Shown here piece after piece: positions 50,994-60,868 of a stretch of 64,000 nt of DNA. The stretch is from Acetohalobium arabaticum DSM 5501 (GTDB taxonomy: Bacteria; Bacillota; Halanaerobiia; Halobacteroidales; Acetohalobiaceae), in the NCBI RefSeq assembly GCF_000144695.1, contig NC_014378.1, positions 1,553,833 through 1,617,832 on the forward strand, given 5' to 3'. Positions within the stretch are counted from its first letter, which is position 1, and each line of letters starts with the position of its first letter. The position numbers and the translations under genes are program-made. The notes beneath the pieces are model-generated. The model saw only the letters and a list, made by a program, of their open reading frames with translations. It was not told the origin of the DNA and did not search any database.

Positions 50994-51618
50994 TTAAAAT
51001 AATTCTTTTACTTTCTTTTCTGCTTTTTCCTTAGTTCGTTCTTTGATTCTAGATTTATCCCACTTAAGTGTAGGAGCTGAAATATCTCCTATTAAATCAA
51101 AATCCAACTGCACCTGATCATTCTCAGTAACATAAAATAACTCCTTATGAGGCAAGTTTATTTCTCTTGATCGATCTTTAGATAATAAATAACTTAATTC
51201 ATAATCTAAACTTATAATTTGCTTCTCCAGACTCATTCTTCGCTAACTGAATAATAGGCTTAACTAATTTAACCTCTTCGATCTTTATCTCTCTCTGTAG
51301 CAGAGGTAATAAAGCTATATCTACAGTAAATTCATCGACTTGAGCTAAATACTTTTCATTAAATCCTTGATCATTGGCAATCTTTACTTCATCAACCCGA
51401 ATTCCAACTCCTCGCCAGAACTTAAGATTAATATCTTTCACTTCAATATTACGATTCAAAGCCGCTTCTAATTTCGGTATAACTAACTTTTTTAATCTAT
51501 TACTATCGAAATAACTCTTTAAGTATGTAAGTCCACCACCTACTACTAAGACCCCAATTAATATTAAGATAATAAAAACCTGTTTAAAACTGAATTTTCT
51601 CTTTTTTTCTGGCTGCAT
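50994..51618 (-). pseudogene. AsmA-like protein gene, ends only
   Basis: The 51618-51199 part gives an N-terminal membrane helix (VFIILILIGVLVVGGGLTYL) and the AsmA start domain (KLEAALNRNIEVKDINLKFW, then KLVKPIIQLAKNESGEANYK). The 51236-50994 part in another frame gives an AsmA-type C-terminus (LDFDLIGDISAPTLKWDKSR). Family proteins usually have 500 or more residues; here the centre is lost and the frames do not join. The two parts overlap by 38 bases in different frames. Confidence 0.7.
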
Positions 51619-51663
51619 AATACTCCTCCTATTCTTCTGCTAATTCATTATATCATATATTGC

Positions 51664-51755
51664 TAAAAAATTACATCACAAAGCCAACTTTCATAATAAT
51701 AAAAGCGACATATCCCTGTAGGGACATGCCGCTTTTATTACTCTATCCGACAGTA
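51664..51755. repeat. Direct repeat L: diverged MoaD gene tail plus terminator
   Basis: About 92 bases match 58046-58140, same orientation, with roughly four of five bases equal. It includes a minus-strand terminator (AAAAGCG... with ...CGCTTTT, about 51701-51737) and, to its right, the remnant of a MoaD-type gene end (GTTACTGTCGGATAG against GTTGCTGGCGGATAG of the intact gene). It marks the left border of the SPOCS cassette. Confidence 0.75.
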
Positions 51756-51928
51756 ACATGGGGTGAGGAAGACTATTTCAAAAAATCTAGATGAGATTAT
51801 CAACTCTAAGATGGAACGGGAGTTCAATTTAATTCAAAATATTATACAGATTTACTTTTATGTAAAACTTTTTAAAAGGTTTATAAAATATTTCGCAGTA
51901 AAATTGTAGTTATTTATAATAAATATTT
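51756..51928. other. Non-coding stretch left of the SPOCS cassette
   Basis: AT-rich sequence. Its first 20 bases still look like decayed MoaD coding sequence with a small insertion. Nothing else is recognised. Confidence 0.4.
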
Positions 51929-51963
51929 TGTGTCGGTTGTTATAAACTACCACAACCGACACA
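51929..51963 (-). terminator. Intrinsic terminator of the leftward SPOCS gene
   Basis: A 12-pair stem (TGTGTCGGTTGT with ACAACCGACACA) followed on the minus strand by AAAATATTTATT. The tract is only moderately T-rich. Confidence 0.75.
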
Positions 51964-51986
51964 TTTGTTTTATATACATTCTTTAA

Positions 51987-52457
51987 TTAATCCATACATT
52001 TTGGAATTGCACAAACAAAAATAACTACACATTCATTAATTTTTCTGGGATTCACAATTGTAGTTGAAACATCTTCAATAAAAACCTTAATCTTTTTTAC
52101 TTTAAAGGAATCAGGTAATTTCAAAAATTGACAGAAAGAAGTTTGGAAGTGAGCTGCATGGACAGATTGTTCTGGATTGTCTGCTACATATAAAATTTTC
52201 TTATTAATTTTACCTTGGAAAATTACTTTTAATCCTTCTATTGTATTTATAGTTTTAAATTTAAATACATCTGCATTTATTAAAATTTTGGCTAATTGTT
52301 CAATATCTGGTTTTTCCTCAGGAACTTTCAATTTTAACTCTTTAACAAATTCTTTTTTTGGTAACTTGCAGTATTTTTTAATATCCTCTGGTTCATATAA
52401 ACCCTGTAATTCCACTAAATCATCGTTAAAATCAAATTCATTTTTTATGAAAATCAC
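51987..52457 (-). CDS. SPOCS (DUF3794) protein, type B, divergent
   Basis: The 156-residue protein is one SPOCS domain: LKVPEEKPDIEQLAKI, then ILYVADNPEQSVHAAHFQTS and a final VVIFVCAIPKCMD. SPOCS domains occur in SipL and in spore coat proteins of clostridia, where they bind coat partners. It belongs with the short type (VHAAHF). It is transcribed away from the six other SPOCS genes and has a sigma-K-like promoter. Confidence 0.82.
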   Translation of the reverse strand: MIFIKNEFDFNDDLVELQGLYEPEDIKKYCKLPKKEFVKELKLKVPEEKPDIEQLAKILINADVFKFKTINTIEGLKVIFQGKINKKILYVADNPEQSVHAAHFQTSFCQFLKLPDSFKVKKIKVFIEDVSTTIVNPRKINECVVIFVCAIPKCMD

Positions 52458-52491
52458 CTCCCCGCCTTTATAAGTAATCTATTTCATGGTA

Positions 52492-52519
52492 TATATTATG
52501 TTAATTTACTTAAAGATGT
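52492..52519 (-). promoter_or_regulatory. Candidate sigma-K promoter, leftward
   Basis: Minus strand: AC (52518-52519), 17 bases, CATAATATA (52492-52500), an exact match to AC-N16/17-CATAnnnTA. It lies about 35 bases before the leftward SPOCS gene. Confidence 0.6.
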
Positions 52520-52608
52520 TATATGGGATCATCTAAATTTGATAATTTCTTTTTTAAAACCATATTTAATAGTAGATTTATTATATAATATTAATTTTCT
52601 GAAAAATG

Positions 52609-52640
52609 CAAAAAAAGAGACAGAATATTTCTTCTGTCTC
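52609..52640 (-). terminator. Hairpin with T tract between the divergent promoters
   Basis: Stem GAGACAGAA with TTCTGTCTC (52617-52640), followed on the minus strand by seven Ts. It lies upstream of both divergent genes, so it would stop antisense or outside transcription. Confidence 0.6.
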
Positions 52641-52746
52641 AGAAAAAGTATTTAAAACAAACTCCTCTTTTATATTATTAGTTGACTTCTAAGATTGTTA
52701 CAAATAGTTTAGATATTATATAATATCTAAATTTTTTCAAATTGTA

Positions 52747-52774
52747 ACATTCTTCCTAAGCCATCCATATTATA
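52747..52774 (+). promoter_or_regulatory. Candidate sigma-K promoter, rightward SPOCS operon
   Basis: AC (52747-52748), 17 bases, CATATTATA (52766-52774), again AC-N17-CATAnnnTA. The ribosome site AAGGAGG of the first SPOCS gene follows at about 52790. Confidence 0.6.
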
Positions 52775-52803
52775 AAACAAATATAAATTAAGGAGGTTAA
52801 AAA

Positions 52804-53289
52804 ATGGGTGCAATACAGAATCCCGACGTTGTTCAACTTTGTCCCGCTTTTCCTGACAGAGAAGCTTTATATTTCAAGGAAATATTCGTATCCGATACTT
52901 TTAAGATTCCGGAAGAAAAACCAGACAAAGAACAGATTGTGAATGTTAATACCAGTGTAGACTTAGTAGATGTCCAGACAATAGAAGTCGAACTCCCCGA
53001 TGGGGAAACCGGTGAAAAGGTTTTTACAGCCGGTAACATCTACCTTGATGTCCAATATTCCTCAACCAGGGAAACACAAACAGTTCACTTTGTTCGTTAC
53101 CAACTACCATTTCAGACTTATATTGTTACAGACTGCGGAGACCTAATTACTGAAGGAGAACTGCCTGATGATTATGTCGTCCACGTCTGTATTGAAAAGA
53201 TGCTGGAAGAACAAATTGATGAAAGAACTATTAACTTTGAACTATTACTGCTGGTATGGGTTGAAGATGCAACCCCCCCTGTCCAGTAA
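52804..53289 (+). CDS. SPOCS (DUF3794) protein, type A
   Basis: The 161-residue protein is a single SPOCS domain: FKIPEEKPDKEQIVNVNTSV, KVFTAGNIYLDVQYSSTRETQTVHFVRYQLPF split over the core, and the end EQIDERTINFELLLLVW. It has no signal peptide, as usual for coat proteins assembled from the mother cell. It leads six rightward genes with strong AGGAGG sites. Confidence 0.83.
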   Translation: MGAIQNPDVVQLCPAFPDREALYFKEIFVSDTFKIPEEKPDKEQIVNVNTSVDLVDVQTIEVELPDGETGEKVFTAGNIYLDVQYSSTRETQTVHFVRYQLPFQTYIVTDCGDLITEGELPDDYVVHVCIEKMLEEQIDERTINFELLLLVWVEDATPPVQ

Positions 53290-53316
53290 AAATATTAATT
53301 GAAAGGAGGATAAAAA

Positions 53317-54141
53317 GTGAATAAATTAACCGAAAAAAGCCTGGCACAAGAACAGTGTCCAGAAGAAGATGTGCTTATTAATAGCTTTACTGAAGTAATT
53401 GTCTGTGAAGAATTAGAAATACCACCACAAAAACCACCTAAGGAACACATTGCTGATACCAGTGTAACCCCAATTGTTGATGATATTGAAGTGATTGAAG
53501 TTGATCTGGGAGACCAGGAAGAACCAAGGAAAAAGGTTGTAGCATCAGGTAATCTAAATATTGGTATAGAATATTCTGCCCTTGAAGATGAACAGCAAAT
53601 ACACTTTGCACACTTTGGTGTTCCATTTCAGGGGATAATAGGATTAAGACCCTGTATATCAGATCCTCAAGTAGATGGATTTAATAGAGGATTGTTACCA
53701 GCCTGTTTTGACCTGGATGATTTTAATCTTAATGCATGTGTTGAGCACAAACAGTTCCACCAGATAACTGAAAGAAAAATTAAAGTTGTAATAGTTGTTC
53801 TCCTGTGGCTTGAACCAAAATTTGAATTGAACTTCACTCAACCGGCAGAAGATGGAACCGAAATTTCTAATGATGCAGATTTCACCCTTGAAGCAGAAGT
53901 AGTTGATGGGATACCCCTCAGTGAAGGTCAGTTTGAATGGGCACCGGTAACCGATCCCGATGATACAACTACAATTTGTACGGATGCTGATCCTGATGGT
54001 ACTATTTCCTGTGATTGGTTAGTAGGTGATTTACCTGCCGCTGATACCGAAGTAATAATAACAGCGACAGCAATACCAGAATGTTATTCCTATTTAGAAA
54101 TTCAGGATACAGTAACAGCTACAATTGTCGCAGCACCATAA
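53317..54141 (+). CDS. SPOCS (DUF3794) protein, type A, with Ig-like C-terminal domain
   Basis: Residues about 15-165 are a SPOCS domain (LEIPPQKPPKEHIADTSVTP, HFAHFGVPFQGIIGL, ITERKIKVVIVVLLW). The last 100 residues are an Ig/cadherin-like beta domain (LNFTQPAEDGTEISNDADFT, then VIITATAIPECYSYLEIQDT). The added domain could stand out from a surface. It follows the first gene by 27 bases. Confidence 0.8.
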   Translation: MNKLTEKSLAQEQCPEEDVLINSFTEVIVCEELEIPPQKPPKEHIADTSVTPIVDDIEVIEVDLGDQEEPRKKVVASGNLNIGIEYSALEDEQQIHFAHFGVPFQGIIGLRPCISDPQVDGFNRGLLPACFDLDDFNLNACVEHKQFHQITERKIKVVIVVLLWLEPKFELNFTQPAEDGTEISNDADFTLEAEVVDGIPLSEGQFEWAPVTDPDDTTTICTDADPDGTISCDWLVGDLPAADTEVIITATAIPECYSYLEIQDTVTATIVAAP

Positions 54142-54205
54142 CTTTGAAAAGTAATTTAGGAATTTAATCAACAGGAAAAAATTAATTAAAAGGAGGGAAA
54201 GATAT

Positions 54206-54625
54206 ATGCTGACTTTTACCGGTATTTTTGATCAGGTTCCCATAGATAGTAAGCTTGTGATTCCACCCCAGAAACCTGAAATGGAATATATTCTGGATAC
54301 TAAAGTGAATGTAATAATTAATAAGGATGAGGTTATAGATACCCCCCTGCTGGTTCCTGAAGCAGAAGATGAAGTTCAACTTCGAAAAGTTGTTGTTAGT
54401 GGTATAGTTGAAATTAAAATAGTTTATTCGGCTCTTGTTCCAGACCAGAAGGTTCATGCTGCTCATTTCAATGTACCATTCTGTGAATTAATTGAATGGC
54501 CGGATGGACCACCGCAGGGAACCCCGATTGAAGTAGATCCTGTAATTGAAAAAGAAGTATTTATGAAGGAAGATGAACGCAGGATTTTTAAATCATTACT
54601 AATTCGACTTGATATCTATAGGTAA
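54206..54625 (+). CDS. SPOCS (DUF3794) protein, type B
   Basis: The 139-residue protein is a short SPOCS domain: MLTFTGIFDQVPIDSKLVIP, PPQKPEMEYILDTK, VVVSGIVEIKIVYSA and QKVHAAHFNVPFCELIEWPD. The start after AAAGGAGGGAAAGATAT is clear. It shares the MLTF start and WPxGP segment with the gene at 55189. Confidence 0.82.
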   Translation: MLTFTGIFDQVPIDSKLVIPPQKPEMEYILDTKVNVIINKDEVIDTPLLVPEAEDEVQLRKVVVSGIVEIKIVYSALVPDQKVHAAHFNVPFCELIEWPDGPPQGTPIEVDPVIEKEVFMKEDERRIFKSLLIRLDIYR

Positions 54626-54640
54626 AAAATAATTGTATTT

Positions 54641-54683
54641 TATATTCTTCAGGCCCTCCATGATGGAGGGCCTGAAGAATATA
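54641..54683 (+). repeat. Perfect 20-pair hairpin between SPOCS genes
   Basis: Both arms (54641-54660 and 54664-54683) pair without mismatch around a three-base loop (TGA). No T tract follows on the plus strand, and the next ribosome site comes seven bases later. It probably marks RNA processing, stability or partial termination between the two halves of the operon. Confidence 0.85.
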
Positions 54684-54704
54684 TGAAAAAGGAGGTTGAA
54701 TGGT

Positions 54705-55175
54705 TTGCCAAAAAAGTGTTTTGGAGATAATGTGGGGGATGAAATGTGTCCTGGAGAAGGAGACGTAATAAGTTTTCATATTCAGACTACTTTAAGCGGT
54801 TTACTTGATATACCCCTTCAAAAACCACCAAAGGAAGAAATTTTTGATAGCACCCATGAAATAGATATAACCAAACTCAAATCAATAACTGTGGCCAGAC
54901 CACAGGGAAAAAAGGTGCTGGTAACCGGTACCTTTATGGCCGGAATTGAATATTTAGCTAAAACCGAAGAACAGACGGTACACTTTTTTCATTCCGATAT
55001 CCCATTTCAGGTTCTTATAAAAGATAATGATGGTACAATGCTAGACTTAGATTTTGATTTAAATGAATATATTGCCCATGTATGTGTGGAACACGAAGAA
55101 TATCAGCAGGTAGATGAAAGAACTATTGCCTATGAAGTAGTTTTATTAATCTGGCTGCAGAGAAAAGATAACTAA
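54705..55175 (+). CDS. SPOCS (DUF3794) protein, type A
   Basis: The SPOCS domain shows LDIPLQKPPKEEIFDSTHEI, KVLVTGTFMAGIEYLAKTEE, QTVHFFHSDIPFQVLI and the end EHEEYQQVDERTIAYEVVLL. I prefer TTG at 54705 (nine bases from GGAGG); the TTG at 54696 lies against that site. The N-terminus has CFGDNVGDEMCPGEG, cysteines that could form bonds, as in the gene at 53317 (QEQCPEED). Confidence 0.8.
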   Translation: MPKKCFGDNVGDEMCPGEGDVISFHIQTTLSGLLDIPLQKPPKEEIFDSTHEIDITKLKSITVARPQGKKVLVTGTFMAGIEYLAKTEEQTVHFFHSDIPFQVLIKDNDGTMLDLDFDLNEYIAHVCVEHEEYQQVDERTIAYEVVLLIWLQRKDN

Positions 55176-55188
55176 AAAGGAGGGAGTT

Positions 55189-55641
55189 TTGTTGTTAACA
55201 TTTATGGATATGGCCGGGGATCCGGAAGTGTTTGACGAATTAGTTATTAATCATAACCTGACCATACCAGAGGAAAAACCGGTAATGGAAAAACTCCTCG
55301 GTTATAAAATAAAGTATAAAATCAAAAAAGCAGCGGTTATTGCTACACCTCTGGTTGAAAATGGTCTTCCGGTAAGAAAGGTTATAATCAAGGGGGACGC
55401 TAAAATTACAATTAAGTATGTTGCGGATGTACCTGACCAGCAGGTACACGGAGCTCACTTTAAAGCACCATTTTCCAAACTGATTATGTGGCCCGGGGGA
55501 CCAGCTCCAGAAACACCGCTGTGTGTGGAGGTTCTGGAAGAACATGTTCAGATTCATATGTTGGACAGTAAACATTTGTCAAAAGTAATTGTTATTCAGC
55601 TCAATGTAAGTGTTAATAAAAAAGGAGGTGACAAAGACTAA
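55189..55641 (+). CDS. SPOCS (DUF3794) protein, type B
   Basis: The 150-residue protein mirrors the gene at 54206: MLLTFMDMAGDPEVFDELVI, TIPEEKPVMEKLLGYK, KVIIKGDAKITIKYVADVPD and QVHGAHFKAPFSKLIMWPGG. Start is one of two tandem TTG codons. Its stop overlaps the ATG of the 773-residue protein by one base. Confidence 0.82.
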   Translation: MLLTFMDMAGDPEVFDELVINHNLTIPEEKPVMEKLLGYKIKYKIKKAAVIATPLVENGLPVRKVIIKGDAKITIKYVADVPDQQVHGAHFKAPFSKLIMWPGGPAPETPLCVEVLEEHVQIHMLDSKHLSKVIVIQLNVSVNKKGGDKD

Positions 55642-57962
55642 TGGCAGTAATAGGTGGTATTGATTTAGGAAATTTAACTGATTATCTATTATTTTTTGCT
55701 GATGCCAATGAGGATGCTAACTGGCAGGGAGCCTCTAAAGGTTTTGCTGGTGATGTTGCAGTTGACGGAATTCAGGCTAACGAACGTACTTCAGGTTTTG
55801 TACCCTATGCGGGAACTATTACTACTAATGATCTTACACTTGACGCCTGGCAGGATATTGTTGATGATAACCCCTTGCAGGCAACAGGTGTAACCGGCCA
55901 GGTAGCTCTTATTAATGATTTAGAAACAGACCTCATTAATGCTTTTCAGCAGATAAATGCCCTTTCTACTAACTTACCCCCAGGGGTAACAGCTCCAGTA
56001 TCCTCGACTGATTTAAATGGAGTAGATACTACCAATGGAACGGCAGAAACCTTTGTTATCGATATTGTTGATGGACTCAGTTTTTCCAGTAAAATATTTA
56101 TCACCGGGGATCCAGAAGATGTTTTCATCCTACGCTGGGATGAAGATCCGGGAACTCCCGGTTATCAGGGGCAGGTAAAACCACAGAGTGGAGGAGCAAT
56201 TGTTCCCCAGGGTGGATTGGAGCCCGGTAATTTCATTAATGTGGCTGGAGATATTAATGCATCAGGTGGTGGCACTACCCCAGCAGCACCCTATCCCCAG
56301 GGTCCTCGTCTGGATGATGGTCAGGGGGCACTGATAAACGGTGGTGATGACTTTGATGGTGGCGGCTTTTTTACTGGTTATTGGCTGACAACAGGTTCAC
56401 CTACTGATTCAGGACCGGGTGGGCTGCTTATTGGAGATACTTCATCACTCAGCAACGGTATCTTTGTCGGCGGTTGGTATACACTGACAACTAAATTCAG
56501 CATGACGTCCGGTACCAGTGGTGTCTATGTCTCACCAAATCCCGCAACACTGGGAGAACCTTCAGTTGATGTTGAGAAATTTGTCTCACCTGATGGTGGA
56601 ACAACATTTTTCGATGCCGATACACCTCCGGGGCCAAATATAGTAATGGGGACAGATCCGGAATACAGGATTGTGGTAACAAATACAGGTAATGAAACAT
56701 TAACCAATATAACTCTCACTGATGATGTTTTAGGTGCTTTTGCTACTCCGGCCAGCCTGGCTCCAGGAGATTCTTTTGAAGTGACTGCTACTGGCACCTG
56801 GGCAGAAGGACTCAATACAAATACAGCCACTGTTACAGCAGATGGTGACACAGTAACAGGACTTACAGACAGTGACCCGGCTAATTATACGGGGGTAACT
56901 GCTTCAATTGATGTAGAAAAATTAGTCTCAGCTGATGGTGGAATGACATTTGTAGACGCAGATACTCCACCCGGACCGGATATAGTGACGGGTACAGACC
57001 CAGTATTTAAATATGTAGTAACCAATAATGGTACAGAAATCCTTACTGATATTTCCTTGATAGACAGTAAACTCGGCCCTATTACTATTCCTACAACTAC
57101 TTTAAATCCCGGAGAATCTTTTGAAGTAACTGCCGCTGGCACCTGGGCTGAAGGTCAGCAGACCAATACAGCTACAGCCACAGGTACATTCGATAGTACA
57201 ATTGTAGAAGACACCGATCCTGCAAATTACTTTGGGGCTGCAAATGCAGCTATAGATATTGAGAAACTGGTTTCAGGTGATGGGGGATTAACCTTTTTCG
57301 ATGCCGATACACCTACCGGACCATTAATAAATGAAGATACTGATCCGCAGTTTAAGTTTATTGTTACCAATACAGGTGATGCTCCTTTAACTGATATTAC
57401 TGTTACTGATACAGTATTGGGTTTTATAACCACCATTCCCAGCTTGAATCCTGGTGATTCAGATGAGACAATAGTGATTGGTACCTGGGCAGGGGGACAA
57501 CAAACAAATACTGCAACAGCTGAGGGCACATTTAATGATCAAACCCTTACAGATACAGATCCAGCTAACTACTTCGGTATCCCGGAATGTTTTTCACAGT
57601 TATTGATAGACGGTGATCTTGAAATTCCGGAACCAAAACCCGATATTGCAAAAATAGTTGATTTTAATGTAAAATCAAAGGTTAATGATATTGATATTTT
57701 TGATACAGTAGATGGAACCAAGATTATTGTTGGTGGATTTGTTAAAATAGGAATAACTTATGTAGCAGACAATGAACAGCAAACAGAACATTTTGCTCAT
57801 TTCAGAGTTCCGTTCAGTGCTACCCTGGTCTGCCCGGAAATACCCCTGGATGCCAAATTGGAGCCGATTATAGTTATTGAACATGAACAGCACCATATAA
57901 TAGACGAAAGAACAATCAGCAAAGACATTGTAATGCTTGTGGGAGTAATAGAAAACTGCTGA
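55641..57962 (+). CDS. Large adhesin-like protein ending in a SPOCS domain
   Basis: The 773-residue protein has three parts. Residues 1-295 resemble choice-of-anchor or ice-binding-type beta-helix surface proteins (LGNLTDYLLFFADANEDANW; SKGFAGDVAVDG). Residues about 300-640 are three DUF11-like repeats of about 112 residues, each with VEKxVSxDGG, DADTPxGP and NTATxxGT. Residues about 650-773 are a SPOCS domain (LEIPEPKPDIAKIVDF, HFAHFRVPFSATLV, IIDERTISKDIVML). It has no signal peptide or sorting motif, so the SPOCS domain probably anchors it on the spore surface. AGGAGGTG precedes the ATG. Confidence 0.82.
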   Translation: MAVIGGIDLGNLTDYLLFFADANEDANWQGASKGFAGDVAVDGIQANERTSGFVPYAGTITTNDLTLDAWQDIVDDNPLQATGVTGQVALINDLETDLINAFQQINALSTNLPPGVTAPVSSTDLNGVDTTNGTAETFVIDIVDGLSFSSKIFITGDPEDVFILRWDEDPGTPGYQGQVKPQSGGAIVPQGGLEPGNFINVAGDINASGGGTTPAAPYPQGPRLDDGQGALINGGDDFDGGGFFTGYWLTTGSPTDSGPGGLLIGDTSSLSNGIFVGGWYTLTTKFSMTSGTSGVYVSPNPATLGEPSVDVEKFVSPDGGTTFFDADTPPGPNIVMGTDPEYRIVVTNTGNETLTNITLTDDVLGAFATPASLAPGDSFEVTATGTWAEGLNTNTATVTADGDTVTGLTDSDPANYTGVTASIDVEKLVSADGGMTFVDADTPPGPDIVTGTDPVFKYVVTNNGTEILTDISLIDSKLGPITIPTTTLNPGESFEVTAAGTWAEGQQTNTATATGTFDSTIVEDTDPANYFGAANAAIDIEKLVSGDGGLTFFDADTPTGPLINEDTDPQFKFIVTNTGDAPLTDITVTDTVLGFITTIPSLNPGDSDETIVIGTWAGGQQTNTATAEGTFNDQTLTDTDPANYFGIPECFSQLLIDGDLEIPEPKPDIAKIVDFNVKSKVNDIDIFDTVDGTKIIVGGFVKIGITYVADNEQQTEHFAHFRVPFSATLVCPEIPLDAKLEPIIVIEHEQHHIIDERTISKDIVMLVGVIENC

Positions 57963-58045
57963 TGAATGATATATTTCTGATTACTTCCGCTGAGAGATGG
58001 TTAGACTATTGTTGGATGCTAAATATACTGTTTAAATAATTAAGG

Positions 58046-58140
58046 TAAAAAATTACATTACAAAGCTAAATTTTATAATAAAAATAGCGGTATATCCCAG
58101 TTGAGGATATACCGCTACTATTACACTATCCGCCAGCAAC
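58046..58140. repeat. Direct repeat R: MoaD gene tail plus terminator
   Basis: Right-hand partner of 51664-51755. It holds the intact terminator and the last codons of the moaD-like gene. Together the pair encloses the SPOCS cassette. Confidence 0.75.
58085..58117 (-). terminator. Intrinsic terminator of the second AOR operon
   Basis: A 13-pair stem (TAGCGGTATATCC with GGATATACCGCTA) followed on the minus strand by TTTTTATTAT. Confidence 0.9.
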
Positions 58141-58392
58141 GCGCGGAAAGATAGTTACTACATCTTTAGTTTTTAGTTCAGTCTCTAAACCATCTAAATA
58201 AAGTATATTTCTACCATTAACTAGAATAGTCAAGCTCTCTCTAACTTCCTTATCATCCAGTAACTTATTCTCCATAGCTGAGCCGTATTCAGCAATTAGT
58301 TCATCTATAACTTGGTTTATATTAGACGCTTCTAAGCATACTTCCTTACAGTCTGTTATATCACGTAAAGTAGCCAACAGCTTAACCTTCAT
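58126..58392 (-). CDS. MoaD/ThiS-like sulfur carrier protein, second AOR operon
   Basis: The 88-residue beta-grasp protein ends TIFPRVAGG with the diglycine. It follows the AOR gene by 20 bases and probably sulfurates the pterin of that enzyme. Confidence 0.86.
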   Translation of the reverse strand: MKVKLLATLRDITDCKEVCLEASNINQVIDELIAEYGSAMENKLLDDKEVRESLTILVNGRNILYLDGLETELKTKDVVTIFPRVAGG

Positions 58393-58412
58393 TACAATCC
58401 CCTTTTAACTAT

Positions 58413-60212
58413 TTATAGGCCTAAAGCTTCTTTTTTCTCTTCTTTAATTTCACCTTCAGGCGTCCAGCCGCGTAGTTCATAATATTCTGCTAACATAGTA
58501 TCCAGTTCGACTACTCTACCTTCTGCTGCTCCTTTAGGTGCAGGTTCCTCTAATAACCGCTTAGCCAGCTTATCCTCATCGGGACCTATACCGGCTTCTA
58601 AATTAAACTGACGTTCTAGATTCCAGATGCGCTCACCAGCTTCCATCATCTCTTCTTGAGTATACTCAGCACCAGTGACTGCTTCTAGTAGCTTATAGAT
58701 ATCTTCGCCGCCGAGAGCAAAAGTGGTAAAGAGACAGATACCACTGGAATCAACTACTGCTGTTAAGTCCTGAAAAGTCTTAGTCAGTTCTGCCTTTCCT
58801 TCTACAGTAAGCGGATCAACGGGTTCAGGAATTCCCAATACCTCTGGCGAAGTAAGGTATCCACGCACATGGCAGCCGCCGCGGTTAGAGGTAGCATACT
58901 CCAGTCCCATTCCCTGAGAACCACGCGGATCATAGGCAGGATACTCCTGTTTCTTGCTGGACATAGAATACTCCGGATGGCCGTAGCTATCGGCTACCCG
59001 CTTAGATCCTTCGGCTAGCTTAGCACCTATTCCTTCTTTCTTACCAGTCAGTTTCACTGCCTCTATCATAGCCTCAGCATTACCAAACTCCAAATCTAAA
59101 TCTATCTCATCACTGTCGATAATACCTTCCTCATACATCTCCATAGCACAGGCAATAGTGGTTCCCATCGTGATAGTATCCAGTCCTAATTCGTTACAGA
59201 TATAGTTGGCTTTAGTAATTGCCTCTAAATCATCAATGCCGCAGTCCGGTCCAAAAGCCCAGATTGTTTCATACTCCGGACCTTCGCCAAAGCCTTCATA
59301 CTTATCACTGGAGAGGGCAGTAACTCTACCACAGCCGATCGGACAGCCAGCACAGGCCTTATTCTTAACCAACAATTCATCGGCTAACTTCTCCCCACTG
59401 ACCTTCTCTGCTCTATCGAATACATTCTCTTGAAAGTTCTCTGCCGGTAGATTACCATGTTCATTGACGATATTTACTAATACTGGAGTTCCTAAAGCCG
59501 GCAGTCCTTCATTGGTTACTCCAGATTCTTCTATCTTAGTTAAGCAGTCTCTTAATACTTCTTTAAATTCATCTCTATCAGCAGGTTTAATTCCCTGGCT
59601 GCCGCGGACCATTACTGCTTTAATCTTCTTAGAGCCCATTACTGCTCCTACTCCAGAACGACCTGCAGCCCGTTCACGATCATTCATAATACAGGCAAAC
59701 TTAACCTGCTGTTCACCGGCTGGACCGATAGCTGAAATCTTAAAACCGTCTCCATATTCTTCCCGCAGCTGATTATCAGTTTCTAGAGTCGTTAAGCCCC
59801 ATAGATCTTCTGCCGGCTTAATCTCAACTTCGCCATCATCAATCAGAATATATACCGGTCTATCAGCTTCACCTTCAAAGATGACCACATCATAACCGGC
59901 ATACTTAATTTCAGATGGAAAATAACCGCCTGAATTAGAAGCAGCAATTGTACCGGTTAATGGCGATTTAGTAACCACATTATAGCGGCTAGCCGAAACA
60001 GCAGCCGTTCCTGTAAGAGGACCAGTAGCAAAGATAAGTTTATTATCAGCACTTAAAGGATCTACTTCAGGGGCTACTTCATCACAGAATAGCTTAGTAC
60101 CTAATCCACGGGCACCAATATAATCTTTAGCTAGCTCTTCATCCAACTCTTCTACTGTTGCTTCCTCTGTAGAAAGATCAATCCGTAAAATCTGTCCCAT
60201 CCATCCTGCCAT
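58413..60212 (-). CDS. Tungsten-type aldehyde:ferredoxin oxidoreductase 2
   Basis: The 599-residue enzyme shows ATGPLTGTAAVSASRYNVVT (pterin), GRSGVGAVMGSKKIKAVMVR, the cluster ligands CAGCPIGCGR and the late Cys in DSSGICLFT. It is a paralogue of the enzyme at 29538 and has its own ferredoxin and MoaD-like genes, but no riboswitch is seen upstream. Its substrate is not known. Confidence 0.92.
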   Translation of the reverse strand: MAGWMGQILRIDLSTEEATVEELDEELAKDYIGARGLGTKLFCDEVAPEVDPLSADNKLIFATGPLTGTAAVSASRYNVVTKSPLTGTIAASNSGGYFPSEIKYAGYDVVIFEGEADRPVYILIDDGEVEIKPAEDLWGLTTLETDNQLREEYGDGFKISAIGPAGEQQVKFACIMNDRERAAGRSGVGAVMGSKKIKAVMVRGSQGIKPADRDEFKEVLRDCLTKIEESGVTNEGLPALGTPVLVNIVNEHGNLPAENFQENVFDRAEKVSGEKLADELLVKNKACAGCPIGCGRVTALSSDKYEGFGEGPEYETIWAFGPDCGIDDLEAITKANYICNELGLDTITMGTTIACAMEMYEEGIIDSDEIDLDLEFGNAEAMIEAVKLTGKKEGIGAKLAEGSKRVADSYGHPEYSMSSKKQEYPAYDPRGSQGMGLEYATSNRGGCHVRGYLTSPEVLGIPEPVDPLTVEGKAELTKTFQDLTAVVDSSGICLFTTFALGGEDIYKLLEAVTGAEYTQEEMMEAGERIWNLERQFNLEAGIGPDEDKLAKRLLEEPAPKGAAEGRVVELDTMLAEYYELRGWTPEGEIKEEKKEALGL

Positions 60213-60698
60213 CTATATCGCCTCCTCAATTAAATTATTTAACCGTTTAGCTAACTTTTTTTTGCGGTCCAATAAGACTTCATCCGGACGTCCATACTCT
60301 AAAGCACCTGTTGGACAGAATTCTACACATTCCGGTTCACCACCACAGAGGTCACACTTACTGTTATGAGCTGAAGTTTCAGTCTCTGCAGTACTGATAA
60401 TACCAATCGGACAGACCATCATGCACATGTTACAGCCAATACATTTATCATGATCAATCACTACTGCTCCTGTCTCTTCTATTTTATTAATGGCTCCAGT
60501 TGGACAGGCTTCCTGACAGCTTGGGTCTTCACAATGAAGACAGGTAATAGGAATTGTATCTATCTCTTCAGGAAAGTTAATCATTGTAATCCTAGCTAGA
60601 CTGGGATTAAATTCGCTCTCATGTTCTAGAGAACACATTAGTTCACAAGTCCTACAGCCAATACACTTCTCTGGATTAATTAATAGAGTCTTTTTCAC
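60213..60698 (-). CDS. Four-cluster-type ferredoxin, AOR 2 partner
   Basis: The 161-residue protein resembles HycB/DmsB electron-transfer subunits. Cysteine groups are CIGCRTCELMC, CLHCEDPSCQEACP, CIGCNMCMMVCP and CDLCGGEPECVEFCP, enough for four 4Fe-4S clusters. Start is the GTG at 60698, preceded by GGAGGG; the longer reading has no ribosome site. It adjoins the AOR gene directly. Confidence 0.9.
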   Translation of the reverse strand: MKKTLLINPEKCIGCRTCELMCSLEHESEFNPSLARITMINFPEEIDTIPITCLHCEDPSCQEACPTGAINKIEETGAVVIDHDKCIGCNMCMMVCPIGIISTAETETSAHNSKCDLCGGEPECVEFCPTGALEYGRPDEVLLDRKKKLAKRLNNLIEEAI

Positions 60699-60822
60699 TA
60701 TAATCCCTCCAATTTTAATTTTAGCCCTAATCAACTAAAAGATTCTATTATATACATTCTTGACCAGGATTGAATAACCTTCCGACAACGTTATGTCAAT
60801 TAAAACATAAAATATTAGCCAT

Positions 60823-60858
60823 AAAAAAAGAACAGATGTCATTTTTGACATCTGTTCT
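60823..60858 (-). terminator. Intrinsic terminator of the FtsH-like gene
   Basis: Stem AGAACAGATGTC with GACATCTGTTCT followed on the minus strand by seven Ts. Confidence 0.92.
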
Positions 60859-60868
60859 AAACAAGTTC

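Follow-up and report, generated by a model that had tools for sequence, protein, structure and literature searches.

A seven-gene SPOCS-domain cassette in Acetohalobium arabaticum as a candidate transferable spore-surface system

The window analysed here is a 64,000-nt stretch of the chromosome of the halophile Acetohalobium arabaticum Z-7288T (DSM 5501), a member of the order Halanaerobiales (PMC3035264) whose genome forms a single contig of 2,469,596 bp. At positions 51987-57962 of this window lies a cassette encoding seven SPOCS domains (PF12673, DUF3794), one on the minus strand (51987-52457) and six on the plus strand (52804-57962). We refer to the rightward genes as A to F, in the order of their starts, and to the divergent gene as G (Table 1). 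This layout had been proposed in an earlier note on the window and was confirmed by scans with PF12673: six of the seven proteins exceed the Pfam cut-off of 23.6 bits in the protein scan, and the product of gene A scores 21.5 bits in that scan and 24.3 bits in the genome scan. All seven open reading frames (ORFs) are intact; gene D may start at an in-frame TTG at 54705, which is better spaced from a GGAGG sequence. The domains are clustered far above chance. The whole genome holds 16 of them, seven in the cassette, eight at 74.8-82.3 kb (divided among a protein of 435 amino acid residues (aa), one of 429 aa and SipL) and one at 1217 kb, and a genome scan found none in any of 14 well-known control genomes. 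The cassette proteins contain 1-8 cysteines each in 139-773 residues; a Pfam scan found in the seven proteins neither DUF3992 nor DUF4183, the subunit domains of S-type and F-type ENA fibres respectively, and an Rfam scan of the cassette gave no match. Two further features named in the earlier note were borne out, namely the fusion of an adhesin with DUF11 repeats to a SPOCS domain (gene F, with three DUF7507/DUF11-type repeats) and the lack of signal peptides on all seven proteins. On the Kyte-Doolittle scale, the most hydrophobic 12-mer within the first 45 residues of these proteins has a mean of no more than 1.85; the corresponding values for the M16 peptidases, two exported neighbours, are 3.05-3.51.

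Table 1. Features of the SPOCS cassette and its borders (positions in the window)
Feature	Position	Strand	Remarks
Left direct repeat, ~95-100 bp	51648..51757		81% identity to 58046-58140
Gene G, divergent single-SPOCS protein, 156 aa, GTG start	51987..52457	-	PF12673 E 6e-9
Sigma-K-type promoter match for gene G, AACA N16 CATAATATA	52492..52520	-	35 nt from G start
Sigma-K-type promoter match for A-F unit, AACA N16 CATATTATA	52746..52774	+	30 nt from A start
Gene A, single-SPOCS protein, 161 aa	52804..53289	+	PF12673; class A 56-61% identity; clade support 99
Gene B, SPOCS and ~110-aa C-terminal extension, 274 aa	53317..54141	+	PF12673 E 1.6e-6; class B 54-59%
Gene C, single-SPOCS protein, 139 aa	54206..54625	+	PF12673 E 2e-11; class C 67-71%
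RNA hairpin between C and D, 20-bp stem	54641..54683	+	-35 kcal/mol for the gap
Gene D, single-SPOCS protein, 159 aa	54696..55175	+	PF12673 E 4e-5; class D 67-70%
Gene E, single-SPOCS protein, 150 aa	55189..55641	+	PF12673 E 4e-8; class E 70-74%
Gene F, adhesin-like protein, 773 aa	55641..57962	+	Repeats and C-terminal SPOCS
Gene F, N-terminal ~310-aa domain	55641-56597	+	No Pfam or NCBIfam match
Gene F, three DUF7507/DUF11-type repeats	about 56560-57600	+	DUF7507 E 2.6e-18; TIGR01451 26.1 bits, cut-off 24
Gene F, C-terminal SPOCS	57579-57959	+	63% identity to SPOCS of the 1459-aa Desulfotomaculum protein
Right direct repeat	58032..58140		3' end and terminator region of MoaD/ThiS-like ORF (next gene)

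Are the seven genes interchangeable copies or distinct parts? A scan of 84,980 species genomes revealed related clusters in Halanaerobacter, Desulfotomaculum, Desulfoscipio, Clostridium, Tepidibacter, Romboutsia, Acetivibrio, a Bacillus, Oscillospiraceae and others. The gene order is A-B-C-A-B-C-D-E-F in Desulfotomaculum UBA7919 (L068); in Desulfoscipio (L059), A-B-C and an extra gene of 307 aa are followed by A-B-C-D-E, and HGW-Firmicutes-12 (L063) carries A-B-C. In a tree of 74 SPOCS domains, built by a quick method from few alignment columns, each cassette domain (A to G) groups with its counterparts (SH-aLRT 95-99), gene G clustering (99) with divergent SPOCS genes from the second A. arabaticum locus, from the genomes G006 and G008, and from Halanaerobacter. 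Identity to the Desulfotomaculum and Desulfoscipio proteins is 54-74% within matching classes, as against 20-45% between classes. Because of these supported clades and class-specific identities, we deduced that A to E are distinct, constrained parts, which points to a heteromeric assembly.

The body of the F protein is exchanged between species while its C-terminal SPOCS domain stays. The 1459-aa F protein of Desulfotomaculum has a different body, of Ig and DUF11 repeats, and keeps the SPOCS tail; that of Halanaerobacter shares its N-terminal domain with A. arabaticum F but carries six Big_7 repeats. A congener of A. arabaticum (G001) encodes an F-type protein with an SdrD_B/GEVED/DUF11 body and a SPOCS tail, and Clostridium weizhouense a 2437-aa protein with such a tail. 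The SPOCS genes of C. aestuarii, Tepidibacter, Lutibacter sp. B2 and Bacillus NTK074B instead adjoin a gene for a collagen-like protein. AlphaFold2 gave a pLDDT of 28 for the N-terminal domain of A. arabaticum F, for which few relatives were available for alignment. The extension of the gene B product, which is missing from the class B orthologues (170-173 aa), had been taken in the earlier note for an Ig fusion. That assignment was not supported: the extension gave no Pfam match even at E 10, and comparison with the Ig-like tails present on SPOCS proteins of Halanaerobacter yielded nothing useful.

Two observations on related loci may be recorded here. A paralogous adhesin locus whose proteins have no SPOCS tails is found at 1219-1223 kb in A. 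arabaticum (L079, 3372-6688) and elsewhere (L080, 4413-8831; L045, 7962-10246). The final DUF7507 repeat of this adhesin is truncated, and a small overlapping gene upstream, encoding a helical 'LLESIALEETALAHILNAEGEKIQ' protein, ends in what appears to be the missing half-repeat, which suggests that the repeat is completed in trans in a manner resembling donor-strand docking. Four clostridial SPOCS clusters (L053, L054, L055 and L056) have a conserved 127-133-aa protein alongside ('MGARL.K..F.P..NE.IEA'), and L053, L055 and L056 have a glycosyltransferase-like gene as well, the product of which possibly glycosylates the collagen-like protein.

How might the cassette have reached its present site? 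The congener G001 has ftsH and the M16 peptidase gene side by side, with 238 bp between them, whereas in A. arabaticum they are 9.9 kb apart (50994-60868), separated by an AsmA-like fragment, the cassette and, to its right, an aldehyde ferredoxin oxidoreductase (AOR)-type operon, for which we saw no functional link to the cassette. The cassette itself is flanked by direct repeats that are 81% identical. The left repeat may be a duplicated gene end, because the right one coincides in part with the 3' end and terminator region of a MoaD/ThiS-like ORF, and a terminator-like hairpin lies there on the minus strand. No integrase was seen. Between A. arabaticum and Desulfotomaculum or Desulfoscipio, identity is 67-74% for classes C, D and E, compared with 58.5% for SpoIVA between A. 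arabaticum and Desulfotomaculum; a class C gene at about 70% identity was found in two of 113 genomes of the Desulfotomaculum class, and clusters of the general cassette kind in three of 68 Clostridium genomes. Because the cassette is patchy in distribution, shows unusual conservation across distant orders, is missing from the congener's site and is flanked by repeats, we consider that it was acquired horizontally as a whole and probably moves as a unit; for the site itself, loss in G001 may be an alternative to gain. Beyond what the earlier note had seen, the cassette thus appears to be an ordered, conserved and transferable set.

Several features connect these genes with sporulation. Both transcription units are preceded by a match with zero mismatches to the sigma-K consensus [AC]AC[AC] N16 CATA N3 TA, in the form used by the authors of the Clostridium taeniosporum work discussed below. 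Among 20,000 dinucleotide shuffles of the 346-bp region between A and G, 0.25% had a match on the plus strand, 0.14% on the minus strand and none on both strands. The whole window holds six matches against 0.9 expected, and four therefore lie outside the A and G promoters. Across the related loci, matches precede 10 of 64 SPOCS genes and 12 of 186 other genes (p 0.03; p 0.009 with collagen-like genes added), a modest enrichment; some of the 'other' genes are themselves spore genes. The A. arabaticum genome encodes intact sigK, SpoIVA and SipL, the last with three SPOCS domains and LysM and located away from the cassette. Of 21 genomes with clusters of this kind, 19 carry SpoIVA; because 65 of 68 Clostridium genomes carry SpoIVA regardless, we take this co-occurrence as a consistency check and not as a specific link. 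Might the genes instead form a vegetative cell-surface or secreted adhesin system unrelated to sporulation? DUF11-type and Ig repeats occur in vegetative surface proteins too, and the two remaining genomes, both metagenome-assembled genomes (MAGs) with SPOCS clusters, gave no SpoIVA match. However, one of these MAGs is only 0.8 Mb, and the lack of signal peptides, the sigma-K matches, the frequency of SpoIVA and the absence of SPOCS from the control genomes make such a system extremely improbable. As a separate observation, sigK matches fall in two pieces (model positions about 2-72 and 67-227) in the Halanaerobiales G003:C35, G008, G010 and G012, which suggests an interruption of the gene by skin-like elements.

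The cassette also resembles a locus for spore appendages. The ribbon-like appendages of C. taeniosporum are specified by the genes CRD1-HYPO1-HYPO2-HYPO3-CRD2-P29a-GP85-P29b-CL2, in which CRD1 has 564 aa, HYPO2 158, HYPO3 160, CRD2 413 and P29a and P29b 269 each; GP85 and CL2 are collagen-like, four of the nine proteins contain DUF11 repeats, and HYPO2 and HYPO3 are similar to the CRD C-termini (PMC5749712). In C. weizhouense (L071, 4338-13609) we found nine genes in identical order and of nearly identical lengths: 556, 161, 158, 160, 413, 269, 289 (collagen), 268 and 486 (collagen) aa. The internal relationships also agree with those published for C. taeniosporum. First, CRD1 and CRD2 are 33.4% identical over 398 residues in C. 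weizhouense (published, 36.6% over 399). Second, P29a is 23% identical to CRD1 (22%) and 27% to CRD2 (29%). Third, HYPO2 and HYPO3 are 31% identical over 148 residues (34% over 140). P29a and P29b differ in this respect between the species, at 48% in C. weizhouense and 87% in the published comparison. Our own profile recognises the SPOCS domain in HYPO2, HYPO3 and the C-terminal parts of CRD1 and CRD2 of C. weizhouense (6e-46, 7e-39, 1e-21 and 8e-44, respectively); against Pfam PF12673, HYPO2 and CRD2 lie above the cut-off and HYPO3 below it, and CRD1 gives no match. Both the C. weizhouense locus and the A. arabaticum cassette combine single-SPOCS proteins with a DUF11-repeat protein that ends in SPOCS (F beside A to E), and late mother-cell (sigma-K) promoters are common to the C. 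taeniosporum locus and, as consensus matches on both units, to the cassette. The cassette differs in having more single-SPOCS genes, of other classes, and an adhesin with the additional N-terminal domain; it is without the collagen-like GP85 and CL2 and the DUF11-only, SPOCS-less P29a and P29b, which C. weizhouense possesses. Judged by its predicted domains, the cassette is thus a variant of the C. taeniosporum-type appendage locus that shares the core architecture and is missing the collagen-like and P29 parts.

Three other known systems were compared. SipL of Clostridioides difficile also contains DUF3794/SPOCS, in three copies followed by a C-terminal LysM (PMC6436350), whereas the cassette proteins have a single SPOCS apiece and lack LysM; moreover, SipL is core in nearly all Clostridium, and the cassette is patchy. 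The F-ENA fibre (PMC11952670), the nearest analogue in mechanism, is alike in outline: the assembly is formed by a small domain, and a further copy of this domain docks a large stalk protein, which is collagen-like or, in Clostridium aceticum, carries DUF11 repeats. However, that domain is DUF4183 and not SPOCS, and F-ENA has one main subunit where the cassette has five or six distinct ones. The cysteine-rich exosporium proteins CdeC, CsxA and CsA likewise build an outer spore layer from the mother cell, but they have about 8% cysteine, and the cassette proteins fall outside their families. By predicted content, the cassette therefore belongs with neither SipL, the ENA family nor the cysteine-rich exosporium family. 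It might be argued that the single SPOCS proteins are extra coat-morphogenetic adaptors of the SipL, SpoVID or CotE kind, acting on the inner or outer coat and forming no appendage, with F as a large coat protein. In the passages on the domain in PMC10659427, PMC6436350 and PMC10867305, every SPOCS protein studied is a coat morphogenetic factor, and multi-SPOCS proteins do adjoin SipL in A. arabaticum. We nevertheless regard such adaptors as an unlikely explanation, given the resemblance of the C. weizhouense locus to an appendage locus, the regular pairing of SPOCS genes with large proteins, repeat-bearing or collagen-like, of the sort that typify outward fibres, and a distribution that is patchy and transferable, not core.

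A word may be added on the SipL region of A. arabaticum, which is a second spore-morphogenesis cluster (71.7-82.6 kb; L042, 3708-14598). It encodes two CryBP1-family proteins, proteins with three and with two SPOCS domains, a GvpL/GvpF-like protein and SipL; in G008 (L045), CryBP1 is also found near SipL.

We considered how the cassette proteins might work together. AlphaFold2 predicts the class C protein (gene C; pLDDT 93.7, pTM 0.82) to be all-beta, with six strands of 13-24 residues. We propose that late in sporulation the mother cell, under sigma-K, would make the six small SPOCS proteins (A to E and G) and the adhesin F, and that these would assemble on the forespore coat from the side of the mother-cell cytoplasm, a route that would account for the lack of signal peptides. 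SPOCS, all-beta and with very long strands, would be the unit of assembly and docking; A to E would come together in one set combination to form a base or stalk, and F would be inserted through its C-terminal SPOCS, with its repeats and N-terminal domain pointing outward. In other species, Ig-repeat, DUF11-repeat or collagen-like proteins would replace this projecting part. The co-assembly of A to E and the docking of F are proposed by analogy: the SPOCS of SpoVID binds other coat proteins, as stated in passages of PMC10867305, and the F-Anchor of F-ENA, with its collagen or DUF11 stalk, carries the same domain as the fibre subunit (PMC11952670). Binding of one SPOCS to another would be implied, and the product might be a fibre, a ribbon or a layer. 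The hairpin between C and D directly precedes the ribosome-binding site of gene D, and hairpins of unrelated sequence occupy the equal position in Desulfotomaculum (L068) and Desulfoscipio (L059). We speculate that it may govern how much of A-B-C is made relative to D-E-F, consistent with the duplicated A-B-C block elsewhere. Taken as a whole, we consider it probable that the locus is a transferable spore-surface cassette, specifying a heteromeric SPOCS assembly that is made by the mother cell and anchors an outward adhesin. The spore-surface part of this proposal is well supported by context, and the appendage part is plausible; the earlier note's suggestion of a dedicated spore-surface assembly, possibly an appendage, thus gains support from the sigma-K matches, the SpoIVA co-occurrence and the C. 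weizhouense locus.

Several points weigh against this proposal, in addition to the two MAGs without a SpoIVA match. The spore location of the proteins is putative, being deduced from sequence and context. In the C. taeniosporum locus, the biochemically proven appendage components are P29a, P29b and GP85 and not the CRD or HYPO proteins (PMC5749712), so that a role for the SPOCS parts there is putative; the SPOCS assignment was read in C. weizhouense, and C. taeniosporum was compared through its published description. No solved structure that would back SPOCS polymerisation was found: a search of solved structures with the SPOCS profile gave a chance match only, and Foldseek and VIA-align found no confident PDB relative of the SPOCS model, the alpha-crystallin-like matches being weak (Z about 4) and not used. 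Finally, sporulation of A. arabaticum is recorded as 'unknown; not observed' (PMC3035264), and a few sporulation genes are reported missing (PMC3533761). The last two points would suit a decaying relic that is functionless since A. arabaticum stopped sporulating. We think this very improbable, because against it stand seven intact ORFs, two perfect promoter matches, intact sigK, spoIVA and sipL, and 54-74% identity to distant orthologues.

In the open-access passages on SPOCS/DUF3794, the domain is so far known from a few coat morphogenetic proteins only, and we found no tie to appendages there. The chances seem to us evenly balanced that SPOCS is a general appendage-assembly domain in anaerobic Bacillota, and that the modular, horizontally exchanged cassettes, in which constant base subunits are combined with an interchangeable projecting protein bearing a SPOCS plug, form a class of fibre or layer on the spore surface that is separate from the ENA types and has the C. 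taeniosporum ribbons as one instance. If the proposal made here is true, SPOCS, as the constant element of large, ordered, transferable cassettes found across several Bacillota groups, would provide a molecular basis for clostridial spore appendages, and the anchoring of the C. taeniosporum ribbons would become testable through two small genes. A. arabaticum itself would then make, or would recently have made, decorated spores.

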